Shown here: piece by piece, positions 43,598-52,217 of the stretch
How the letters are laid out: each line of letters opens with the position of its first letter
How positions within the stretch are numbered: the stretch's first letter is position 1
Assembly (NCBI RefSeq): GCF_001425785.1
Contig: NZ_LMDI01000007.1
Span: 1-64,000, forward strand
Origin: Rhizobacter sp. Root1221
Lineage (GTDB): Bacteria > Pseudomonadota > Gammaproteobacteria > Burkholderiales > Burkholderiaceae_C
Direction: 5' to 3'
Length of the DNA stretch: 64,000 nucleotides
The notes under the pieces: model-generated
The model's input: only the letters and a program-made list of their open reading frames with translations
What the model was told of the DNA's origin: nothing
Database searches by the model: none
Translations under genes and position numbers: made by a program

Positions 43598-44074
43598 ATG
43601 ACGCCAGCCCTCAACAAACCCCTCCCGGAATTTGAAGCGCTCGCAACCGGTGGCGTGAAGTTCACGCCGCAGGCTTTCGCCGGGCAAACCGTCGTTTTGT
43701 ACTTCTACCCGAAAGACAATACTCCCGGATGCACCACGGAAGCCATGCAATTCCGTGATCGCCACAAGGATTTCGTGAAAGCCGGCGCCATCGTGTTCGG
43801 CGTCTCGCGCGACAACATGAGTTCGCACGACAAATTCAAGCAAAACCTTGAATTGCCGTTCGAGCTGATTGCCGATACCGAGGAAAAGCTCTGCCACATG
43901 TTCGGCGTGGTCAAGAACAAGATCATGTACGGCAAGAAGGTCAAGGGCATCGAGCGCAGCACGTTCCTGATCGACGGCGCCGGTGTGCTCCGGGCGGAAT
44001 GGCGCGGCCTGAAGGTGGCCGGGCACGTCGACGAGGTGCTCAAGGAAGTCAAGGCGTTGAAAAAAACCGCTTGA
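43598..44074 (+). CDS. bcp: Thiol peroxidase Bcp/PrxQ
   Basis: Encodes 158 residues. The peroxidatic Cys45 is in D-N-T-P-G-C-T-T-E. The position of the usual PrxQ resolving Cys, five residues later, is Met50 here, so the enzyme cannot form that disulfide and probably works as a 1-Cys peroxidase or uses Cys in E-K-L-C-H. It reduces hydroperoxides with thioredoxin. TATAAT at 43544-43549 is a likely -10. A strong terminator follows at 44103. Confidence 0.93.
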   Translation: MTPALNKPLPEFEALATGGVKFTPQAFAGQTVVLYFYPKDNTPGCTTEAMQFRDRHKDFVKAGAIVFGVSRDNMSSHDKFKQNLELPFELIADTEEKLCHMFGVVKNKIMYGKKVKGIERSTFLIDGAGVLRAEWRGLKVAGHVDEVLKEVKALKKTA

Positions 44075-44278: not shown

Positions 44279-45931
44279 ATGCCACTGCCCAAGCCGCCTG
44301 CCAAACGTGCCAGTCTCCTGACCCCCGCCGATTTCGACTCGCAGGCCGCGCCCAAACCGGGCAAACGGACCACCCAGAAACACCCCGCCGCCGAGCCCGC
44401 CTCCGCCGCGCTCGATCTCTATGAGCCGCCTCGGGAAGCCGCCCCGGTGATCGCCCCGGTGCTTGCGCGCCCTGCCCCGGTGGCGCAACGCCCGGCCGCC
44501 CAGCCCAAGGCGCGCAAGCCGCGCACCGCCGGCCCGGCCAAGCTCTTCGTGCTCGACACCAACGTGCTGATGCACGACCCGATGTGCGTGTTCCGCTTCG
44601 AGGAACACGACGTCTACCTGCCCATGATCACGCTCGAGGAACTCGACGATCACAAGAAGGGCATGTCCGAAGTGGCGCGCAATGCCCGCCAGGTGAGCCG
44701 CGACCTCGACGCGCTGGCCGCCAGCCTCACCGACAACCCCGGCGCCGACATGGCCGACGGCCTGCCGATCGCCCACACCGGCCACCGCGAAGCCGGCGGC
44801 AAGCTGTTCTTCCAGACCACGTTGCTCGACGTCGACCTGCCCCGCGGGCTGCCGCAAGGCAAGGCCGACAACCAGATCCTCGGTGTCGTGAAGGCCCTGC
44901 GCGACCAGCACACCGGCCGCGAGGTGGTGCTGGTGTCGAAGGACATCAACATGCGCATCAAGGCCCGCGCCCTGGGCCTGGCCGCGGAAGACTACTTCAA
45001 CGACAAGACCCTCGACGACGGCGACCTGCTCTACACCGGCGTGCAGTCGCTCCCGTCCGACTTCTGGGACTTGCACGGCAAGACCATGGAAAGCTGGAAC
45101 CAGGGCGGCCTCACGTACTACCGCATCAGCGGCCCGCTCGTGCCGTCGCTGCTGATCAACCAGTTCGTATTCCTTGAAGCCCCGGGCGCCACGCCGCTGT
45201 ACGCCAAGGTCACCGAGATCACCGGCAAGACGGCCGTGCTGCGCACGCTGCGCGAGTACACCCACCAGAAGAACGCCGTGTGGGGCGTCACGGCACGCAA
45301 CCGCGAGCAGAACTTCGGCCTCAACCTCCTGATGGACCCCGACTGCGACTTCATCACGCTGACCGGCACCGCCGGCACCGGCAAGACGCTGATGACCCTC
45401 GCCGCCGCGCTGTCGCAGGTGATGGACGACCGCCGCTACACCGAGATCATCGTCACCCGCGTGACCGTGCCGGTGGGCGAGGACATCGGCTTCCTGCCAG
45501 GCACCGAGGAAGAGAAGATGTCGCCGTGGATGGGCGCCCTCGACGACAACCTGGAAGTGCTGTCGAAGACCGACGGCGCCGCGGGTGAATGGGGCCGCGC
45601 GGCCACCAACGACCTGGTGCGCAGCAAGATCAAGATCAAGAGCCTGAACTTCATGCGCGGGCGCACGTTCCTGAACAAGTTCGTCATCATCGACGAAGCC
45701 CAGAACCTGACACCCAAGCAGATGAAGACGCTGATCACGCGCGCCGGCCCCGGCACGAAGATCGTGTGCCTTGGCAACCTCGCGCAGATCGACACCCCGT
45801 ACCTCACCGAAGGCAGCTCCGGCCTCACCTACGCAGTGGACCGGTTCAAGGGTTGGCCGCACAGCGGCCACGTCACCCTGGCCCGCGGCGAACGCTCCCG
45901 GTTGGCGGACTTCGCTTCCGAAGTGCTCTGA
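44279..45931 (+). CDS. PIN-PhoH fusion protein (PhoH2-type)
   Basis: Encodes 550 residues. After a Pro/Ala-rich basic N-terminus, a PIN RNase domain starts near residue 88 (L-F-V-L-D-T-N-V-L-M-H-D, acidic E-E-L-D-D-H and D-N-Q-I-L-G). A PhoH-type ATPase domain follows from about 350, with Walker A G-T-A-G-T-G-K-T near 365 and Walker B F-V-I-I-D-E-A-Q-N-L near 485. PhoH2 proteins are ATP-dependent RNA helicases/ribonucleases. The gene lies after a terminated leader and ends just before a strong terminator, so it is a single-gene unit. bcp-phoH adjacency is common in Burkholderiales. Confidence 0.92.
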   Translation: MPLPKPPAKRASLLTPADFDSQAAPKPGKRTTQKHPAAEPASAALDLYEPPREAAPVIAPVLARPAPVAQRPAAQPKARKPRTAGPAKLFVLDTNVLMHDPMCVFRFEEHDVYLPMITLEELDDHKKGMSEVARNARQVSRDLDALAASLTDNPGADMADGLPIAHTGHREAGGKLFFQTTLLDVDLPRGLPQGKADNQILGVVKALRDQHTGREVVLVSKDINMRIKARALGLAAEDYFNDKTLDDGDLLYTGVQSLPSDFWDLHGKTMESWNQGGLTYYRISGPLVPSLLINQFVFLEAPGATPLYAKVTEITGKTAVLRTLREYTHQKNAVWGVTARNREQNFGLNLLMDPDCDFITLTGTAGTGKTLMTLAAALSQVMDDRRYTEIIVTRVTVPVGEDIGFLPGTEEEKMSPWMGALDDNLEVLSKTDGAAGEWGRAATNDLVRSKIKIKSLNFMRGRTFLNKFVIIDEAQNLTPKQMKTLITRAGPGTKIVCLGNLAQIDTPYLTEGSSGLTYAVDRFKGWPHSGHVTLARGERSRLADFASEVL

Positions 45932-45946
45932 TTCGTCATGCGCCCG

Positions 45947-45977
45947 AAAAACGCCCGGCCTGGCCGGGCGTTTTTTT
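45947..45977 (+). terminator. Intrinsic terminator after the PhoH-like gene
   Basis: ACGCCCGGCC and GGCCGGGCGT form a 10-base-pair stem with a minimal loop (45951-45970), preceded by As and followed by seven Ts (45971-45977). It ends 16 bases after the stop region and insulates the copper-oxidase operon downstream. Confidence 0.9.
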
Positions 45978-46174: not shown

Positions 46175-49100
46175 ATGCAAGTACGACTGCTGCGCTGCGG
46201 TGCGGCAATGATGACGCTCGGCCTGCTGGCCAGCTGCGGGGGAGGAGACGACACGGGCGAACCGGCCCCGATGACATCCAGCCGAAAGACGGTGCTCAGC
46301 ATGGCGGCTCCGATGCAGGCCCAATGGTCCGAGCCGATCCCGCTGTCGCTGGTGCCGGCCGCCGCCGCCAACCTGCCCGACGGCAAGCTGCTCTTGTGGT
46401 CGGCACAGGCGCGTTTCAGTTTCAAGACGGCGCCGGGCAGCACCTATACCGCGGTGTTCGATCCGGCCACGGGCGAAAGCGTCGAACGGCTGGCCACCGA
46501 GAACAACCACAACATGTTCTGCCCGGGCACGGCGAACCTCCCGGACGGCCGCCTGCTCGTCAGCGGCGGCTCCAGCAGCGGGGCCACCAGCATCTACGAC
46601 CCGGTGCTGGGCACCTGGACCAGCGCCTCGGCGATGAACATCGGGCGCGCCTACCATGCCAGCGTGCCACTGGCCGACGGCTCGGTGTTCGCACTCGGCG
46701 GCTCGTGGAACGGTGGGCAGGGCAACAAGCACGCCGAAGTGTGGACCGCTGCCGGCGGCTGGCGGCGCCTGACCGGCGTGCCCGTGGACCCGATGGTCGG
46801 CCCCGACCCGGCCGGCGTCTACCGCGGCGACAACCACATGTGGCTGATCCCGACCGGCAACGGCCGCGTCCTGCATGCCGGCCCGAGCAGCGACATGCAC
46901 TGGATCGACACCCGAGGCAACGGCGCCATCACGCCGGCAGGAACGCGCGGCGACGACACCTACGCGATCAACGGCTCGACCGTGATGTACGACGCCGGCA
47001 AGATCCTGAAGACGGGTGGCGCGGCGGCTTACGAAAACGCCGACGCCACCGCCACGACCTACCTGATCGACACCACCGGGGGCAGTGCCAGCGTGCGCCG
47101 GCTCGCGCCGATGGCCTATGCGCGCGCCTACCACAACAGCGTCGTGCTGCCCAACGGACAAGTGATGATCGTCGGCGGCATGAGCTACCCGGTGCCCTTC
47201 TCCGACAGCCGCTCGGTGCTCGTGCCCGAACTGTGGGACCCCGTCACCGAGACCTTCACGCCGCTGCCGGCGATGAGCGTGCCGCGCAACTACCACAGCA
47301 CCGCGTTGCTGCTGCCCGATGGGCGGGTAGCCTCGATCGGCGGCGGCCTGTGCGGCAACGGCTGTTCCGGCAACCACGCCAATCTGCAGATCTTCACGCC
47401 GCCCTACTTGCTTGACGCCCAGGGCCAGCCGGCCGTGCGGCCCGTCATCACCGAGGCCGCGGCCGAAGCGGGCTACGGCACGCACATGACGGTGGCCACG
47501 GACTCGGCCGTCAACGCGTTCGCACTCGTGCGCCTGTCGTCGACGACGCACACCGTCAACAACGACCAGCGCCGCATCGCGCTCACGTCCACCCCGCTCG
47601 GCGACAACCGCTACGCGCTCGCCATCCCGAGCAACCCCGGCATCGCGCTGCCCGGCATGTACATGCTGTTCGCGCTCGATGCCGCCGGTGTCCCTTCGGT
47701 GGCCAGGACACTGCGCATCGCCGGCGAGAAAACGCCGCTGCTGACCGCCCCCGGCGACCAGACCTCGGTGGCGGGCAACAACACATCGCTGCAGCTCATC
47801 GCCTCCGGTGCCGGAACGATCGCCTATGGTGCCATGGGCCTGCCCGACGGCCTGACGCTCGACAGTGCCAGCGGCATCATCGCCGGCACCCCGACAACGC
47901 CCGGCAGCCACCCCGTCAAGCTGACGGCTGTCAATGCGAATGGCGCCGTCAGCACCAACCTGGTCTGGACGGTGCAGCCCTCCGGCACGGTCGCCACACG
48001 CTACGTCAAGTTCGAGGCGCTGTCAGAAATGCAGGGTCGCCGGTGGACGTCGGTGGCCGAGTTCAACCTGCTCGACCCGGGCGGCGCCATCATCCCGCGC
48101 GACGGCTGGAAGATCAGCGCCGACAGCCAGGAAACGCGAGGCGAGTACGCGCCGGCGGGCAACGCGATCGACGGCAACACCGCCACCTATTGGCACACCC
48201 AGTGGCAGAACGGGAACCCGGCGCCGCCACACACGCTGGTGATCGACCTCGGCGTCGCCCGGCCGATCGGCGGTTTGCGCTACCTCGCGCGGCAGCGCTC
48301 CGACCTCGGGCACATCGCCAAGTGGCGGCTGCACGTCAGCAGCGACGGCGTGAACTGGCGCGCGGTGGCCTCGGGCACCTTCCTGAAAGACGCCGCCGAC
48401 ACAACCGTCTACCCGATCGACACCGGCGCTGCGAACGCCTGGCCCGAATTGCAGGCGCCCGCGAACCCGACCGTCACCGTGGGCGACGCGGTGACGCTGC
48501 CGCTCGCCGCGAGCGATGCCGACGGCGACACGCTGAGCCATGCAGTGTCCAACTTGCCGCCAGGGCTGACGGTCAACGCCGTCACCGGCCTGGTCAGCGG
48601 CACGCCCACAGCCACCGGCGTCTTTTCCTCGACCGTGCTCGCCAGCGACGGACGCGGCGGCACGGCCACGGCACCGCTCACCTGGACGGTGCTCAAACGC
48701 AGCGTCACCATCGACCCGGTCGCCGCTGCACCGTCGGGCGCTGGCAAGACCGTGACTTACAGCGCGAGCGCGAATGGCGGCCTGGGCGCAACCTGGGCCT
48801 GGGACTTCGGTGACGGCACCGCGATCGACACCTCGAGCCACGCCACCGCCACCCACACCTACACCACGTCCGGCCTGTACACCGTCACCGTGGCGGTCAC
48901 CGACGCCAGCGGCGCCCGGACGGTGCGCCAGTTCACCCAGGCCGTGTACGGCGCGCCATCGAACACCCTGCGTGCGACGCAGTCGGGCAAGGTCGCGTGG
49001 GAGACCCCGGCCAGCGGCAACCCACGCGTGTGGGTGGTCAACGCCGACGGCGACACGGTCAGCGTCTTCGATGCCGTCTCGCTCACCAAGCTCGGCGAAG

Positions 49101-51235
49101 TGGCGGTGGGCACGGCGCCTCGCAGCGCGGCGCTCGCACCGGACGGCCGGCTGTGGGTGGTCAATCAAGAGGGTGCCAGCCTCAGCCTCATCGACACCAG
49201 GACGCTCACGGTCGCGCGGACAATTCCCCTGCCGCGCGCGAGCCAGCCGCATGGCATCGCCTTCGCGCCGAATGGCAGTGCGGCCTACGTCGCACTCGAA
49301 GCCAGCGGCCAACTGCTGAAGCTCGACGCCTCCACCGGCACGACGCTGGCAACGCTGGCCGTCGGCCCCCACCCGCGGCACTTGGCCGTGACGCCCGACA
49401 GCGCCCGCATCCTGGTGTCGCGGTTCATCACACCGCCACAGCCCGGCGAGGGAACCGCCCGCGTCGCAACGCAGCGCGACGGCGCCAGCGTGGGCGGCGA
49501 AGTCCTGGTCGTCGCGGCCGCATCGTTCGCGATCGAACGCACGGTGGTACTGCAGCACAGCGCCAAGGCCGACAGCACGACGCAGGGCCGCGGCGTGCCG
49601 AACTACCTCGGCGCACCGGTCATCTCGCCGGATGGTGCGAGCGCCTGGGTGCCGTCCAAGCAAGACAACATCCAGCGCGGCACGCTTCGCGACGGACAGA
49701 ACCTGGACTTCCAGAACACCGTGCGGGCGATCAGTTCACGCATCGACCTGGCGAGCCTCGCGGAGGACCACGCGTCACGCATCGACCACGACAACGCGGG
49801 GCTGGCCAGCGCGGCGGCGTACCACCCGACCGGCGCCTACCTGTTCGTCGCGCTGCCGACGAGCCGGCAGGTGGCGATCGTCGATCCGTTCAAGCAGCTG
49901 GAGGTGGCGCGCATCGAGGTGGGCCGCGCACCCGACGCGCTGCTGGTCTCGAACGACGGCATGCGCCTGTTCGTCTCGAATTTCATGGACCGCACGCTTC
50001 AGGCGATCGACCTCTCGCGCCTGGTGGGCTACGGCGAATGGCACTTCGCGACGCTGGCCACGCTGCCGGCGCAGGCGATCGAGCGGCTCGGCGCACAGGT
50101 ACTGATCGGCAAGCAGCTCTTCTACGATGCGCGAGACCCACGTCTCGCCCGCGATGGGTACATGAGCTGCGCCAGCTGCCACGACGGCGGCGGCCATGAC
50201 GGCCGCGTCTGGGACATCACCGGCCTGGGCGAAGGCCTGCGCAACACGATCAACCTGCGCGGGCGTGCAGGCATGGGCCACGGCCGGCTGCACTGGAGCG
50301 GCAACTTCGACGAAGTGCAGGACTTCGAGGGGCAGATCCGCAGCCTGGCTGGCGGCACGGGCCTGTTGAGCGACGCGCTCTTCAACACCGGCACGCGCAG
50401 TCAGCCGTTGGGCACGGCCAAGAAGGGCCAGGGCAATGACCTCGACGCGCTGGCGGCCTACGTGGCCTCGCTGAACGCGACGGCCGCAAGCGTGGATCGC
50501 ACGGGCGCGGGTGCGCTGACCGCCGCCGCCAGCGCGGGCCGAGGCGTGTTCATCGCGCAGCAGTGTGGCAGTTGCCACGGAGGCACCACGTTCGCGAACA
50601 GCGGCATGCTGCTGGTGGACATCGGCACGATCAAGCCGGGCAGCGGCAAGCGCCTGGGTGCTGCCCTCCCCGGGATCGACGTGCCGACGCTGCGCGACGT
50701 GCACGGCACCGCACCGTATCTGCACGACGGCTCGGCTGCCACGCTCGGCGCGGCGGTGCTCGCGCACCGTGGCGTCGCGCTGGGCAGCGAGGACTTGTCC
50801 AACCTGGTCGCCTACCTCGATCAGATCGGCAGCGAGGAAGCCGCTGCGCCGGTCGGCCTGCCCCAGGACGCGGTGCACTGCGCAGCGGAGCGTGGCACCT
50901 GCACGCTTCCCGCGGGCACACCGGCCACGGTGTACTACGGCGCCAAGGACCAGTGGTTCAGCCGCTCGGCGATGCGTGGTGCGGTCGCGTGCAGCAACGC
51001 CACCTTCAGCGACCCGCTGTACGGCACCACCAAGGCCTGCTACTACGTGCCGGCGGTGAAGTGCTCGGACGAAGGTGGCAACTGCACGGTGCCCGCGGGC
51101 AGCAGCGCCAGCATCCTGTACGGCACGAACGGTTCGTACTACCAGCGCACCGGGGTCCAGGGGGACATCGCGTGCAGCAACGCGATCTTCGGCGACCCGC
51201 TGTTCGGATCGGCCAAGGCGTGCTGGCGCCAATGA
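46175..51235 (+). CDS. Galactose-oxidase-type copper radical oxidase fused to a di-heme peroxidase-like domain (lipoprotein)
   Basis: Encodes 1686 residues. Lipobox L-L-A-S-C puts the lipid on Cys21. Residues ~50-515 match galactose oxidase closely: Cys116 (M-F-C-P-G) and Tyr160 (R-A-Y-H) are the thioether pair, Trp178 (G-G-S-W) the stacking Trp, Tyr373/His374 (N-Y-H-S) and His459 (T-T-H-T-V-N) the copper ligands. Then come an Ig-like domain (~518-602), an F5/8C discoidin domain (~605-750), a cadherin-like domain (~755-840), a PKD domain (~842-925, W-D-F-G-D-G), a YVTN propeller (~945-1295) and a MauG/cytochrome-c-peroxidase-like region (~1305-1545). The last has hemes at C1332-A-S-C-H and C1464-G-S-C-H and P-T-L-R-D-V-x-G-T-A-P-Y-L-H-D-G-S. 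Two ~60-residue Cys-rich repeats end the protein. GGAAGG precedes the ATG. The stop overlaps the next gene by 4 bases. Confidence 0.88.
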   Translation: MQVRLLRCGAAMMTLGLLASCGGGDDTGEPAPMTSSRKTVLSMAAPMQAQWSEPIPLSLVPAAAANLPDGKLLLWSAQARFSFKTAPGSTYTAVFDPATGESVERLATENNHNMFCPGTANLPDGRLLVSGGSSSGATSIYDPVLGTWTSASAMNIGRAYHASVPLADGSVFALGGSWNGGQGNKHAEVWTAAGGWRRLTGVPVDPMVGPDPAGVYRGDNHMWLIPTGNGRVLHAGPSSDMHWIDTRGNGAITPAGTRGDDTYAINGSTVMYDAGKILKTGGAAAYENADATATTYLIDTTGGSASVRRLAPMAYARAYHNSVVLPNGQVMIVGGMSYPVPFSDSRSVLVPELWDPVTETFTPLPAMSVPRNYHSTALLLPDGRVASIGGGLCGNGCSGNHANLQIFTPPYLLDAQGQPAVRPVITEAAAEAGYGTHMTVATDSAVNAFALVRLSSTTHTVNNDQRRIALTSTPLGDNRYALAIPSNPGIALPGMYMLFALDAAGVPSVARTLRIAGEKTPLLTAPGDQTSVAGNNTSLQLIASGAGTIAYGAMGLPDGLTLDSASGIIAGTPTTPGSHPVKLTAVNANGAVSTNLVWTVQPSGTVATRYVKFEALSEMQGRRWTSVAEFNLLDPGGAIIPRDGWKISADSQETRGEYAPAGNAIDGNTATYWHTQWQNGNPAPPHTLVIDLGVARPIGGLRYLARQRSDLGHIAKWRLHVSSDGVNWRAVASGTFLKDAADTTVYPIDTGAANAWPELQAPANPTVTVGDAVTLPLAASDADGDTLSHAVSNLPPGLTVNAVTGLVSGTPTATGVFSSTVLASDGRGGTATAPLTWTVLKRSVTIDPVAAAPSGAGKTVTYSASANGGLGATWAWDFGDGTAIDTSSHATATHTYTTSGLYTVTVAVTDASGARTVRQFTQAVYGAPSNTLRATQSGKVAWETPASGNPRVWVVNADGDTVSVFDAVSLTKLGEVAVGTAPRSAALAPDGRLWVVNQEGASLSLIDTRTLTVARTIPLPRASQPHGIAFAPNGSAAYVALEASGQLLKLDASTGTTLATLAVGPHPRHLAVTPDSARILVSRFITPPQPGEGTARVATQRDGASVGGEVLVVAAASFAIERTVVLQHSAKADSTTQGRGVPNYLGAPVISPDGASAWVPSKQDNIQRGTLRDGQNLDFQNTVRAISSRIDLASLAEDHASRIDHDNAGLASAAAYHPTGAYLFVALPTSRQVAIVDPFKQLEVARIEVGRAPDALLVSNDGMRLFVSNFMDRTLQAIDLSRLVGYGEWHFATLATLPAQAIERLGAQVLIGKQLFYDARDPRLARDGYMSCASCHDGGGHDGRVWDITGLGEGLRNTINLRGRAGMGHGRLHWSGNFDEVQDFEGQIRSLAGGTGLLSDALFNTGTRSQPLGTAKKGQGNDLDALAAYVASLNATAASVDRTGAGALTAAASAGRGVFIAQQCGSCHGGTTFANSGMLLVDIGTIKPGSGKRLGAALPGIDVPTLRDVHGTAPYLHDGSAATLGAAVLAHRGVALGSEDLSNLVAYLDQIGSEEAAAPVGLPQDAVHCAAERGTCTLPAGTPATVYYGAKDQWFSRSAMRGAVACSNATFSDPLYGTTKACYYVPAVKCSDEGGNCTVPAGSSASILYGTNGSYYQRTGVQGDIACSNAIFGDPLFGSAKACWRQ

Positions 51236-51672
51236 CCTCGCGCACGACCACGGGCCTTGCCGCGCTGGCCCTGTTCAGCGCCATGTTGCAGGGTGCCTGG
51301 GCGCAGGGTGATGGCGCCCTCGGTGCGCAGCTGTTCGACGGCCGCGCGGCCCTGCCCGCACAACTCACCGGGCGGGGCCTGGCGCTGCCAGTCACCGCGA
51401 GCCGTTGCGCGAACTGCCATCGCCGCGACGGCCCCGCGACCGCGGCACCGGCCGCGCCCAGCTTCGGCCCGCCGCTGACGGCCGCGTCCCTGCGCAAACG
51501 CCAGCCGCGGCGCGGCGGCCCGGCATCGAACTATGACAACGCCTCGTTCTGCCGGCTGCTGCGCACCGGCATCGACCCGGCCTTCGTGCTCATTGACGAG
51601 CGCATGCCTCGCTACACGGCGACCGACGCACAGTGCGCGGCGCTCTGGGTCTACCTCGGCGGTTCGTCATGA
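51232..51672 (+). CDS. Exported mono-heme cytochrome c
   Basis: Encodes 146 residues. A signal peptide ends near A-W-A-Q; the single heme motif is C59-A-N-C-H63, and Met125 in D-E-R-M-P-R-Y is the likely axial ligand. Two extra Cys (S-F-C-R, A-Q-C-A) could form a disulfide. The ATG overlaps the upstream TGA (ATGA), so it is translationally coupled to the oxidase fusion. It is the likely electron donor to, or acceptor from, the di-heme domain of the fusion protein. Confidence 0.82.
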   Translation: MTSRTTTGLAALALFSAMLQGAWAQGDGALGAQLFDGRAALPAQLTGRGLALPVTASRCANCHRRDGPATAAPAAPSFGPPLTAASLRKRQPRRGGPASNYDNASFCRLLRTGIDPAFVLIDERMPRYTATDAQCAALWVYLGGSS

Positions 51673-52217
51673 AGCGCCGGCACCTGCTGGCTGCGCTCGC
51701 GTCCGCGCCGTTCGCGGCACGCGGGCATGATCCCTTCGGCCGTGTCGACCCGCCGAAGCCCGCGCCGCGGCTGCCACTGCGATGTGCCGACGGCTCGCTT
51801 CGCGACTTCGGCGAACGGCTGCGGGGGCACACCACCGCGGTCCAGCTGATGTTCACGACGTGCAGCGCCGTCTGCCCGATCCAGGGGGCGCTCTTTGCTG
51901 CCGTCGCGGCTCAACTCCAGGGCGGCGACGCGCGCCTGCTCTCGCTGAGCATCGACCCGCTGAACGACGACCCACGGGCCCTTGCCGCGTGGCTCGCACG
52001 CTTCGGCGCCGCACCCGCCTGGCAGGCCGCGGCGCCACGCCTCGCCGACGTCGACCGCTTGTTCGACCTGCTCAATGGCCGTGCCCCGGGGCCCGACCGC
52101 CACAGCACCCAGGTCTATCTGTTCGATCGCCGGGCGCGACTGGTGTACCGCACGCCCGAACTGCCGAAGGTGGCACATGTGGTCGAGATGCTGCGCGAGG
52201 TAGCGCGCACCTCTTGA
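51669..52217 (+). CDS. Sco1/SenC-type copper chaperone
   Basis: Encodes 182 residues. A signal peptide with an R-R motif precedes a thioredoxin-like fold. The copper site is Cys65 and Cys69 in F-T-T-C-S-A-V-C-P with His145 in R-H-S-T-Q-V-Y-L-F-D, the classical Sco C-x3-C...H set. L-S-I-D-P-L-N-D-D matches Sco S-V-D-P-x-x-D. Sco proteins usually metallate cytochrome oxidase CuA; no such gene is here. The ATG overlaps the stop of the cytochrome gene, so the likely client is the copper radical oxidase of the same operon. Confidence 0.85.
   Translation: MKRRHLLAALASAPFAARGHDPFGRVDPPKPAPRLPLRCADGSLRDFGERLRGHTTAVQLMFTTCSAVCPIQGALFAAVAAQLQGGDARLLSLSIDPLNDDPRALAAWLARFGAAPAWQAAAPRLADVDRLFDLLNGRAPGPDRHSTQVYLFDRRARLVYRTPELPKVAHVVEMLREVARTS

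Follow-up and report, generated by a model that had tools for sequence, protein, structure and literature searches.

The window analysed here, a 64,000-nucleotide stretch of Rhizobacter sp. Root1221 (contig NZ_LMDI01000007.1, positions 1 to 64,000), carries between positions 46175 and 52217 three genes on the forward strand, the first of which encodes a 1686-residue protein (46175..51235) that joins a copper radical oxidase of the galactose oxidase (AA5) type to a diheme domain. The single frame described from the sequence in a preliminary description runs uninterrupted, with no internal stop over its 1686 codons, and the order of its parts is AA5 copper radical oxidase-Ig-CBM32-Ig-PKD-YVTN propeller-diheme-C-terminal repeats. 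The protein is a predicted lipoprotein, its signal sequence (residues 1-21, 46175..46237) ending, as read from the translation, in the lipobox LASC at residues 18-21. The galactose-oxidase Kelch and E-set domains (residues 45-516, 46307..47722; Pfam and PDB sequence matches) precede an F5/8 type C (CBM32-like) domain (residues 647-740, 48113..48394) recognized by Pfam and by matches to hyaluronidase/sialidase binding modules, an Ig-like He_PIG linker (residues 761-839, 48455..48691; Pfam, the better of two He_PIG stretches) and a PKD domain (residues 855-919, 48737..48931; Pfam). A YVTN beta-propeller (residues ~937-1290, 48983..50044), placed by NCBIfam and Pfam searches and by a predicted model, lies between oxidase and heme region as had been proposed, and the diheme domain itself (residues ~1305-1555, 50087..50839), with heme motifs C1332-H1336 and C1464-H1468 and residues W1374 and H1531, is followed by a C-terminal tandem of Cys-containing repeats (residues 1565-1686, 50867..51232; read from the translation). 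The lipobox, the CBM32-type domain, the Ig and PKD linkers and the C-terminal repeat pair are additions to what had been described. A gene for a mono-heme cytochrome c (51232..51672, 146 residues) and one for a Sco-type copper chaperone with CxxxC and His (51669..52217, 182 residues) follow, each joined to the gene before it by the ATGA overlap already recognized in the preliminary description. Pfam models above cut-off in the fusion and its operon are GO-like E-set, Kelch, He_PIG, F5/8 type C, PKD, YNCE, CCP_MauG and SCO1-SenC.

The fusion recurs well outside the window. Within the genus, where 11 genomes were searched, orthologs are present in four of the ten other genomes with 57-58% identity over query residues 7 to ~1556-1560. 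At family level 24 of 200 genomes match at E ≤ 1e-30 and, where the loci were read, an AA5-YVTN-diheme frame is found in 15 of the 200 (the locus of genome G003 being L030); in genome G078 the pieces lie on two short contigs and may represent one further fusion, and a second copy in genome G171 (L071) is split across two frames. A scan of one genome from each of 84,980 species, using the patterns NFDExQDF (diheme) and PGx[YW]MLFA[LM] (E-set) and a ranking that favours full-length matches, confirmed at least 556 relatives among 587 stretches, the best 80 of which gave 79 loci; owing to the positions of the patterns and the full-length ranking, these 79 are the most window-like members and not a sample. 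AA5, YVTN and diheme matches fall in a single frame in 76 of these best scan loci, a count that takes in L110, L116, L133 and L136, where AA5 is cut by a contig edge, and L120, where the diheme domain is cut by an in-frame TAG; the remaining three (L151, L153 and L160) start at a contig edge. L120 was considered as a natural split of oxidase and diheme domain and rejected, as it is one frame with an in-frame TAG. According to record names, many of them those of metagenome assemblies, the 79 loci belong to Pseudomonadota (66; 48 Betaproteobacteria, nine Gammaproteobacteria and nine without class), Verrucomicrobiota (10), Planctomycetota (one), Myxococcota (one) and one unnamed source. The distribution of the module is patchy, since a phylum-wide draw detected it at E ≤ 1e-60 in only three of 398 genomes, the window's own included. 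A rapidly built tree covering 102 modules needs no more than five changes of partner type, so that the fusion looks old and maintained. That the frame is an assembly join of two genes, the objection which the preliminary description had itself named, or the product of a frameshift, is excluded by the uninterrupted reading, the same-genus orthologs and the many other genomes that encode it; of the two features that it had proposed to search for, the domain order was found in 76 of 79 loci and the linked Sco gene, as detailed below, in most members of one clade.

Sequence searches place the oxidase domain firmly with the galactose oxidases in the PDB (E 1.4e-172 for 9g43 and 1.3e-132 for 1gof). 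In a hand-read alignment with 1t2x, residues C116, Y160, W178, Y373, H374 and H459 fall opposite fungal C228, Y272, W290, Y495, H496 and H581, which we take to be the copper-site residues of fungal galactose oxidase; every active-site residue listed in the preliminary description is in place, and at the level of these residues the AA5 copper site of the fusion protein is intact. Conservation was assessed over 89 distinct fused domains (95 were long enough), 66 from scan loci and 23 from the window genome and its relatives. Tyr272, Tyr495, His496 and His581 are present in all 89 and Cys228 in 88, whereas Trp290 is found in 40 and was used as the marker of a galactose-oxidase-like clade. A loose lipobox pattern precedes AA5 in 70 of the 89 distinct fusions. 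The sole fusion lacking the crosslink Cys (L097:2275-7080) also lacks the second-heme His described below, a hint of joint decay, although this is one case and comes from a metagenome assembly. Among the seven substrate-pocket residues F194, W290, Q326, Y329, R330, Q406 and F464 (list from PMC11267884), the same hand-read alignment indicates that F194, W290, Y329, R330 and F464 are retained as F83, W178, Y216, R217 and F342 of the window protein and that Q326 and Q406 are changed to A213 and E287. An extracellular sugar is a plausible substrate.

The two CxxCH motifs reported in the preliminary description begin at residues 1332 and 1464, and the PTLR...APYLHDGS signature of the MauG/peroxidase group can be read as stated there. 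In both heme motifs the letters are conserved at 98-100% across 93 distinct diheme domains, and Trp1374, which aligns with the inter-heme Trp of diheme peroxidases, is kept in 91; conservation of residues 1377-1384 is partly imposed by the scan pattern and was left out as evidence. H1531 occupies the alignment column of the Met that we take to be the ligand of the second (E) heme in bacterial diheme cytochrome c peroxidases, and in this column His is found in 85 of the 93 domains, with His a few residues later in five, Asn in one (L097) and two that end short. The peroxidase catalytic Glu lies opposite a gap (1eb7) or A1392 (9qdt) in alignments that are weak. Because His stands in for the second-heme Met and no residue clearly corresponds to the catalytic Glu, it is doubtful on sequence that the module works as a canonical peroxidase. 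Structure predictions, made without hemes, gave a confidence (pLDDT) of 91.5 for the propeller-diheme unit, in which residues 1368-1382 including H1373-W1374 fall below 50, and a weaker 77.3 for the diheme domain on its own. Shewanella peroxidase 3o5c ranks first for the module by both Foldseek and sequence, and MauG and MbnH are among its structural matches; no RoxA chain appears among the structural matches listed, where RoxA-type rubber oxygenases had no dedicated comparison and nothing is thereby excluded. Judged from sequence and predicted model, the YVTN-diheme unit is about as similar to the beta-gamma part of hydrazine synthase as to the diheme peroxidases. The earlier label of a MauG/peroxidase-like domain consequently holds for the CCP_MauG match, the two heme motifs, the Trp and the signature, but not as an exclusive assignment, given the comparable closeness of hydrazine synthase beta-gamma, the exchange of Met for His and the unmatched Glu.

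The downstream genes are part of the pattern. The Sco protein scores 40.1 bits against a cut-off of 22.8 (SCO1-SenC, Pfam), and all 51 fusion-linked Sco proteins carry CxxxC and the distal His, presumably the copper ligands; the small cytochrome falls under Pfam cut-offs, yet CxxCH and one Met are present in 35 of 35 relatives. Neighbours were counted around the 71 of 89 distinct fusions that have at least 1.5 kb of flank on each side. Of the 32 loci in the Trp290 clade, 30 have Sco no more than 1.5 kb away and 29 have the cytochrome gene at that range; among the short-flank fusions Sco was seen in seven of 18. Where present, Sco shares the strand of the fusion gene and follows it in 32 cases, precedes it on that strand in 10 and precedes it on the other strand in two. 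If absence is counted as a fourth arrangement, the module tree requires 12 changes of arrangement, against six for the presence of Sco alone, indicating that the linkage outlasts rearrangement. No Sco was found near 15 distinct module proteins without AA5, eight of them covered on both sides and the other seven (L020, L021, L054, L055, L057, L166 and L169) mainly downstream, with only ~300 bases for L055, and it was not found near four AA5 proteins without the module (L029 and L058-L060); a remote Sco may escape in both sets, since it was the linked Sco proteins that supplied the search profile. The operon showed no promoter-like site, and no terminator-like site was seen at its ends; an inverted repeat followed by T's is visible by eye near 45950. 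Linkage of AA5 and Sco is not in itself new, as an association of Gox genes with sco is already reported for certain species of Burkholderia (PMC4736821).

Five known systems share parts of this arrangement. Galactose oxidases (1gof, 9g43) have the same Kelch and E-set domains, copper-site residues, stacking Trp, five of the seven pocket residues and a CBM32-like domain, which follows the catalytic domain in the fusion and precedes it in 9g43; unlike them, the fusion protein is a lipoprotein with an attached YVTN-diheme unit and linked Sco and cytochrome c genes. Hydrazine synthase beta-gamma (5c2v) likewise consists of a beta-propeller and then a diheme fold, an order that is not distinctive because it is common to other proteins too, whereas the fusion protein is additionally joined to AA5 and reaches only 67 bits against the NCBIfam NF052342 cut-off of 1250, for which reason membership was rejected. 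Cys165 and Asp168 of the gamma subunit, which have reported roles at the active heme (PMC12758564; PMC12607021), are T1395 and L1398 in a weak alignment, and with these residues replaced hydrazine synthesis was also rejected. Bacterial diheme cytochrome c peroxidases, MauG and MbnH share with the module the fold, two CxxCH motifs, the inter-heme Trp and the PTLR-PYxHDGS motif; the module differs in its His for the second-heme Met, in a catalytic Glu that was not found and in the propeller in front. MauG, which presumably has Tyr at the position of that Met, was rejected as a family assignment, with TIGR03791 at 47 bits against a cut-off of 443.85. In Streptomyces an AA5 oxidase, Sco and a heme peroxidase are reported to act jointly (GlxA, Sco and DtpA), but as products of separate genes and with a single-heme, DyP-type peroxidase (PMC4736821). 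A fungal tandem is also described in which a copper radical alcohol oxidase is activated by a paired heme peroxidase; there the two are separate secreted proteins, the peroxidase is of class II and no cytochrome is mentioned in the main text of that article (PMC9770985). Assignment of the oxidase to GlxA was rejected, as NCBIfam NF052501 gave 152 bits against a cut-off of 800.

Copper radical oxidases are inactivated by reduction of their radical and require an outside oxidant. The reading placed first, and held only tentatively, is that the fusion is a copper radical alcohol oxidase, secreted as a lipoprotein, with a built-in diheme redox partner that sustains the radical, handles peroxide and is linked to cytochrome c. 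Sco would supply copper, permitting the Cys116-Tyr160 crosslink; the oxidase would then convert a primary alcohol to the aldehyde and O2 to H2O2, its substrate perhaps being a glycan held by the CBM32-like domain. With H2O2, the diheme module would provide oxidizing equivalents that regenerate the active radical from the inactive Cu(II)-tyrosine form, and excess peroxide would be reduced with electrons of the linked cytochrome c. A built-in redox partner is ranked first on account of three precedents in which a copper radical oxidase is paired with heme chemistry: activation of the fungal alcohol oxidase by its tandem peroxidase, where electron paramagnetic resonance is reported to support a one-electron oxidation (PMC9770985), reactivation of glyoxal oxidase by peroxidase systems (PMC10928124), and maturation of GlxA, which at low copper is reported to require both Sco and the heme peroxidase DtpA (PMC4736821). 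Also in its favour are the conserved copper-site, heme-motif, Sco and cytochrome residues, the linkage of Sco and cytochrome in the Trp290 clade, the small number of partner changes on the module tree and the inter-heme Trp.

Several observations weigh against this interpretation. Maturation of GlxA in the absence of DtpA is reported to be restored by added copper (PMC4736821), so GlxA does not absolutely depend on a heme partner. The missing counterpart of the catalytic Glu, together with the second-heme His, means that peroxide chemistry is not assured. In the clade without Trp290, Sco is nearby in 14 of 39 loci and the cytochrome gene in none of the 39. Within the genus, AA5-less LVIVD propeller proteins that bear the YVTN-diheme module adjoin a glucose/sorbosone dehydrogenase gene in all six loci (L031, L035, L036, L038, L020 and L021). 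We know of no sugar dehydrogenase of the pyrroloquinoline quinone (PQQ) type that makes peroxide, which favours plain electron transfer.

These last points lead to the strongest alternative, itself somewhat unlikely in our estimate, in which the fusion would be a copper radical dehydrogenase: the diheme domain would take electrons from the copper site and pass them through the linked cytochrome c to the respiratory chain. O2 would then not be the principal acceptor, and peroxide formation would be low. We know of no copper radical dehydrogenase, and the copper site retains the residues of an O2-using oxidase, from which the heme domain is separated by the Ig, CBM32 and PKD linkers. On the other side stand the linked cytochrome of 29 of 32 loci in the galactose-oxidase clade, the second-heme His, the missing Glu and the dehydrogenase genes next to AA5-less module proteins, which together support electron transfer to cytochrome c. 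Besides the six PQQ-type neighbours, a GMC oxidoreductase gene adjoins module-bearing LVIVD proteins in two of two genus loci (L028 and L037), and the YVTN-diheme module is possibly a shared electron module. The two GMC proteins, however, have no obvious signal peptide by eye, and neither a PQQ-type dehydrogenase nor a GMC neighbour was found at L084 and L085 outside the genus. The His resembles that of the His/His gamma-II heme of hydrazine synthase, a proposed contact of cytochrome c (PMC12607021), and built-in cytochrome domains are reported to mediate electrons in other oxidoreductases (PMC6472588). There is a comparably low probability that the fusion is the first known case of respiration being fed by an enzyme of the galactose-oxidase type, its hydrazine-synthase-beta-gamma-like module serving as a general plug-in through which this enzyme, PQQ-type enzymes and perhaps flavin enzymes deliver the electrons of alcohols and sugars oxidized outside the cell to a dedicated cytochrome c.

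Improbable, in turn, is a role purely as a peroxide sink, the diheme domain acting as a cytochrome c peroxidase that clears the H2O2 of the oxidase and leaves the copper site untouched. CCP_MauG above the Pfam cut-off, the first rank of the Shewanella peroxidase by Foldseek and sequence, the retained inter-heme Trp and the linked cytochrome c are all consistent with it; the exchange of the second-heme Met for His, the lack of a clear counterpart to the catalytic Glu, the consumption of cytochrome electrons that it would entail and the retention of the module in AA5-less proteins argue otherwise. Least probable, and very doubtful, is a MauG-like maturase that oxidizes the neighbouring oxidase once, forming the Cys-Tyr crosslink or the first radical: MauG and MbnH are among the structural matches, GlxA at low copper depends on a heme peroxidase and Sco as described above, and L097, the only AA5 domain without the Cys, also lacks the second-heme His, but fungal galactose oxidase needs nothing beyond copper and O2 to form its crosslink, the module is also found in proteins without AA5, and L097 is a single case from a metagenome assembly.

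No description of an AA5-YVTN-diheme fusion was found in the titles and abstract openings of the papers listed from the literature searched, which covers few subscription papers; AA5 fusions as such are already known, a bacterial AA5 joined to an inactive CE3 domain being cited in PMC11267884. In fungi and Streptomyces separate heme peroxidases assist the oxidase, whereas here oxidase and heme module share one chain, in many bacteria. The fusion offers a direct route to the maturation, upkeep and cytochrome wiring of copper radical enzymes and could reveal what relatives of hydrazine synthase beta-gamma do in the environment, and a self-activating or electrode-wired galactose oxidase would serve biocatalysis.

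Further variants of these proteins were encountered. The window's own genome holds a second copy (L027:4633-9382), with an AA5 domain without Trp290 fused to the module and its own Sco gene after it, near which no linked cytochrome was found, and a third AA5-like protein (L029:4805-9130) with a DUF1326 domain and no CxxCH. One locus encodes a single frame of AA5 and two successive YVTN-diheme units with four heme motifs (L076:4798-12462), in which an assembly-made repeat is possible; at another, three AA5 genes stand in a row, the last joined to the module (L075:1118-10918). A YVTN-diheme frame without AA5 (L166:1-3306) has upstream matches to mutarotase-type models and a long tree branch. The C-terminal repeats of the window protein (50867-51232), which gave no Pfam family at E 0.1, have matches in further proteins encoded by this genome (C76, C12 and C14), and the same-genus orthologs carry another C-terminal part in their place, which by eye resembles the end of the L031 dehydrogenase protein. 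Upstream of the operon are a PrxQ-like peroxiredoxin gene (43598-44074) and, between it and the operon, a PhoH-family gene (44279-45931), both below NCBIfam cut-off.

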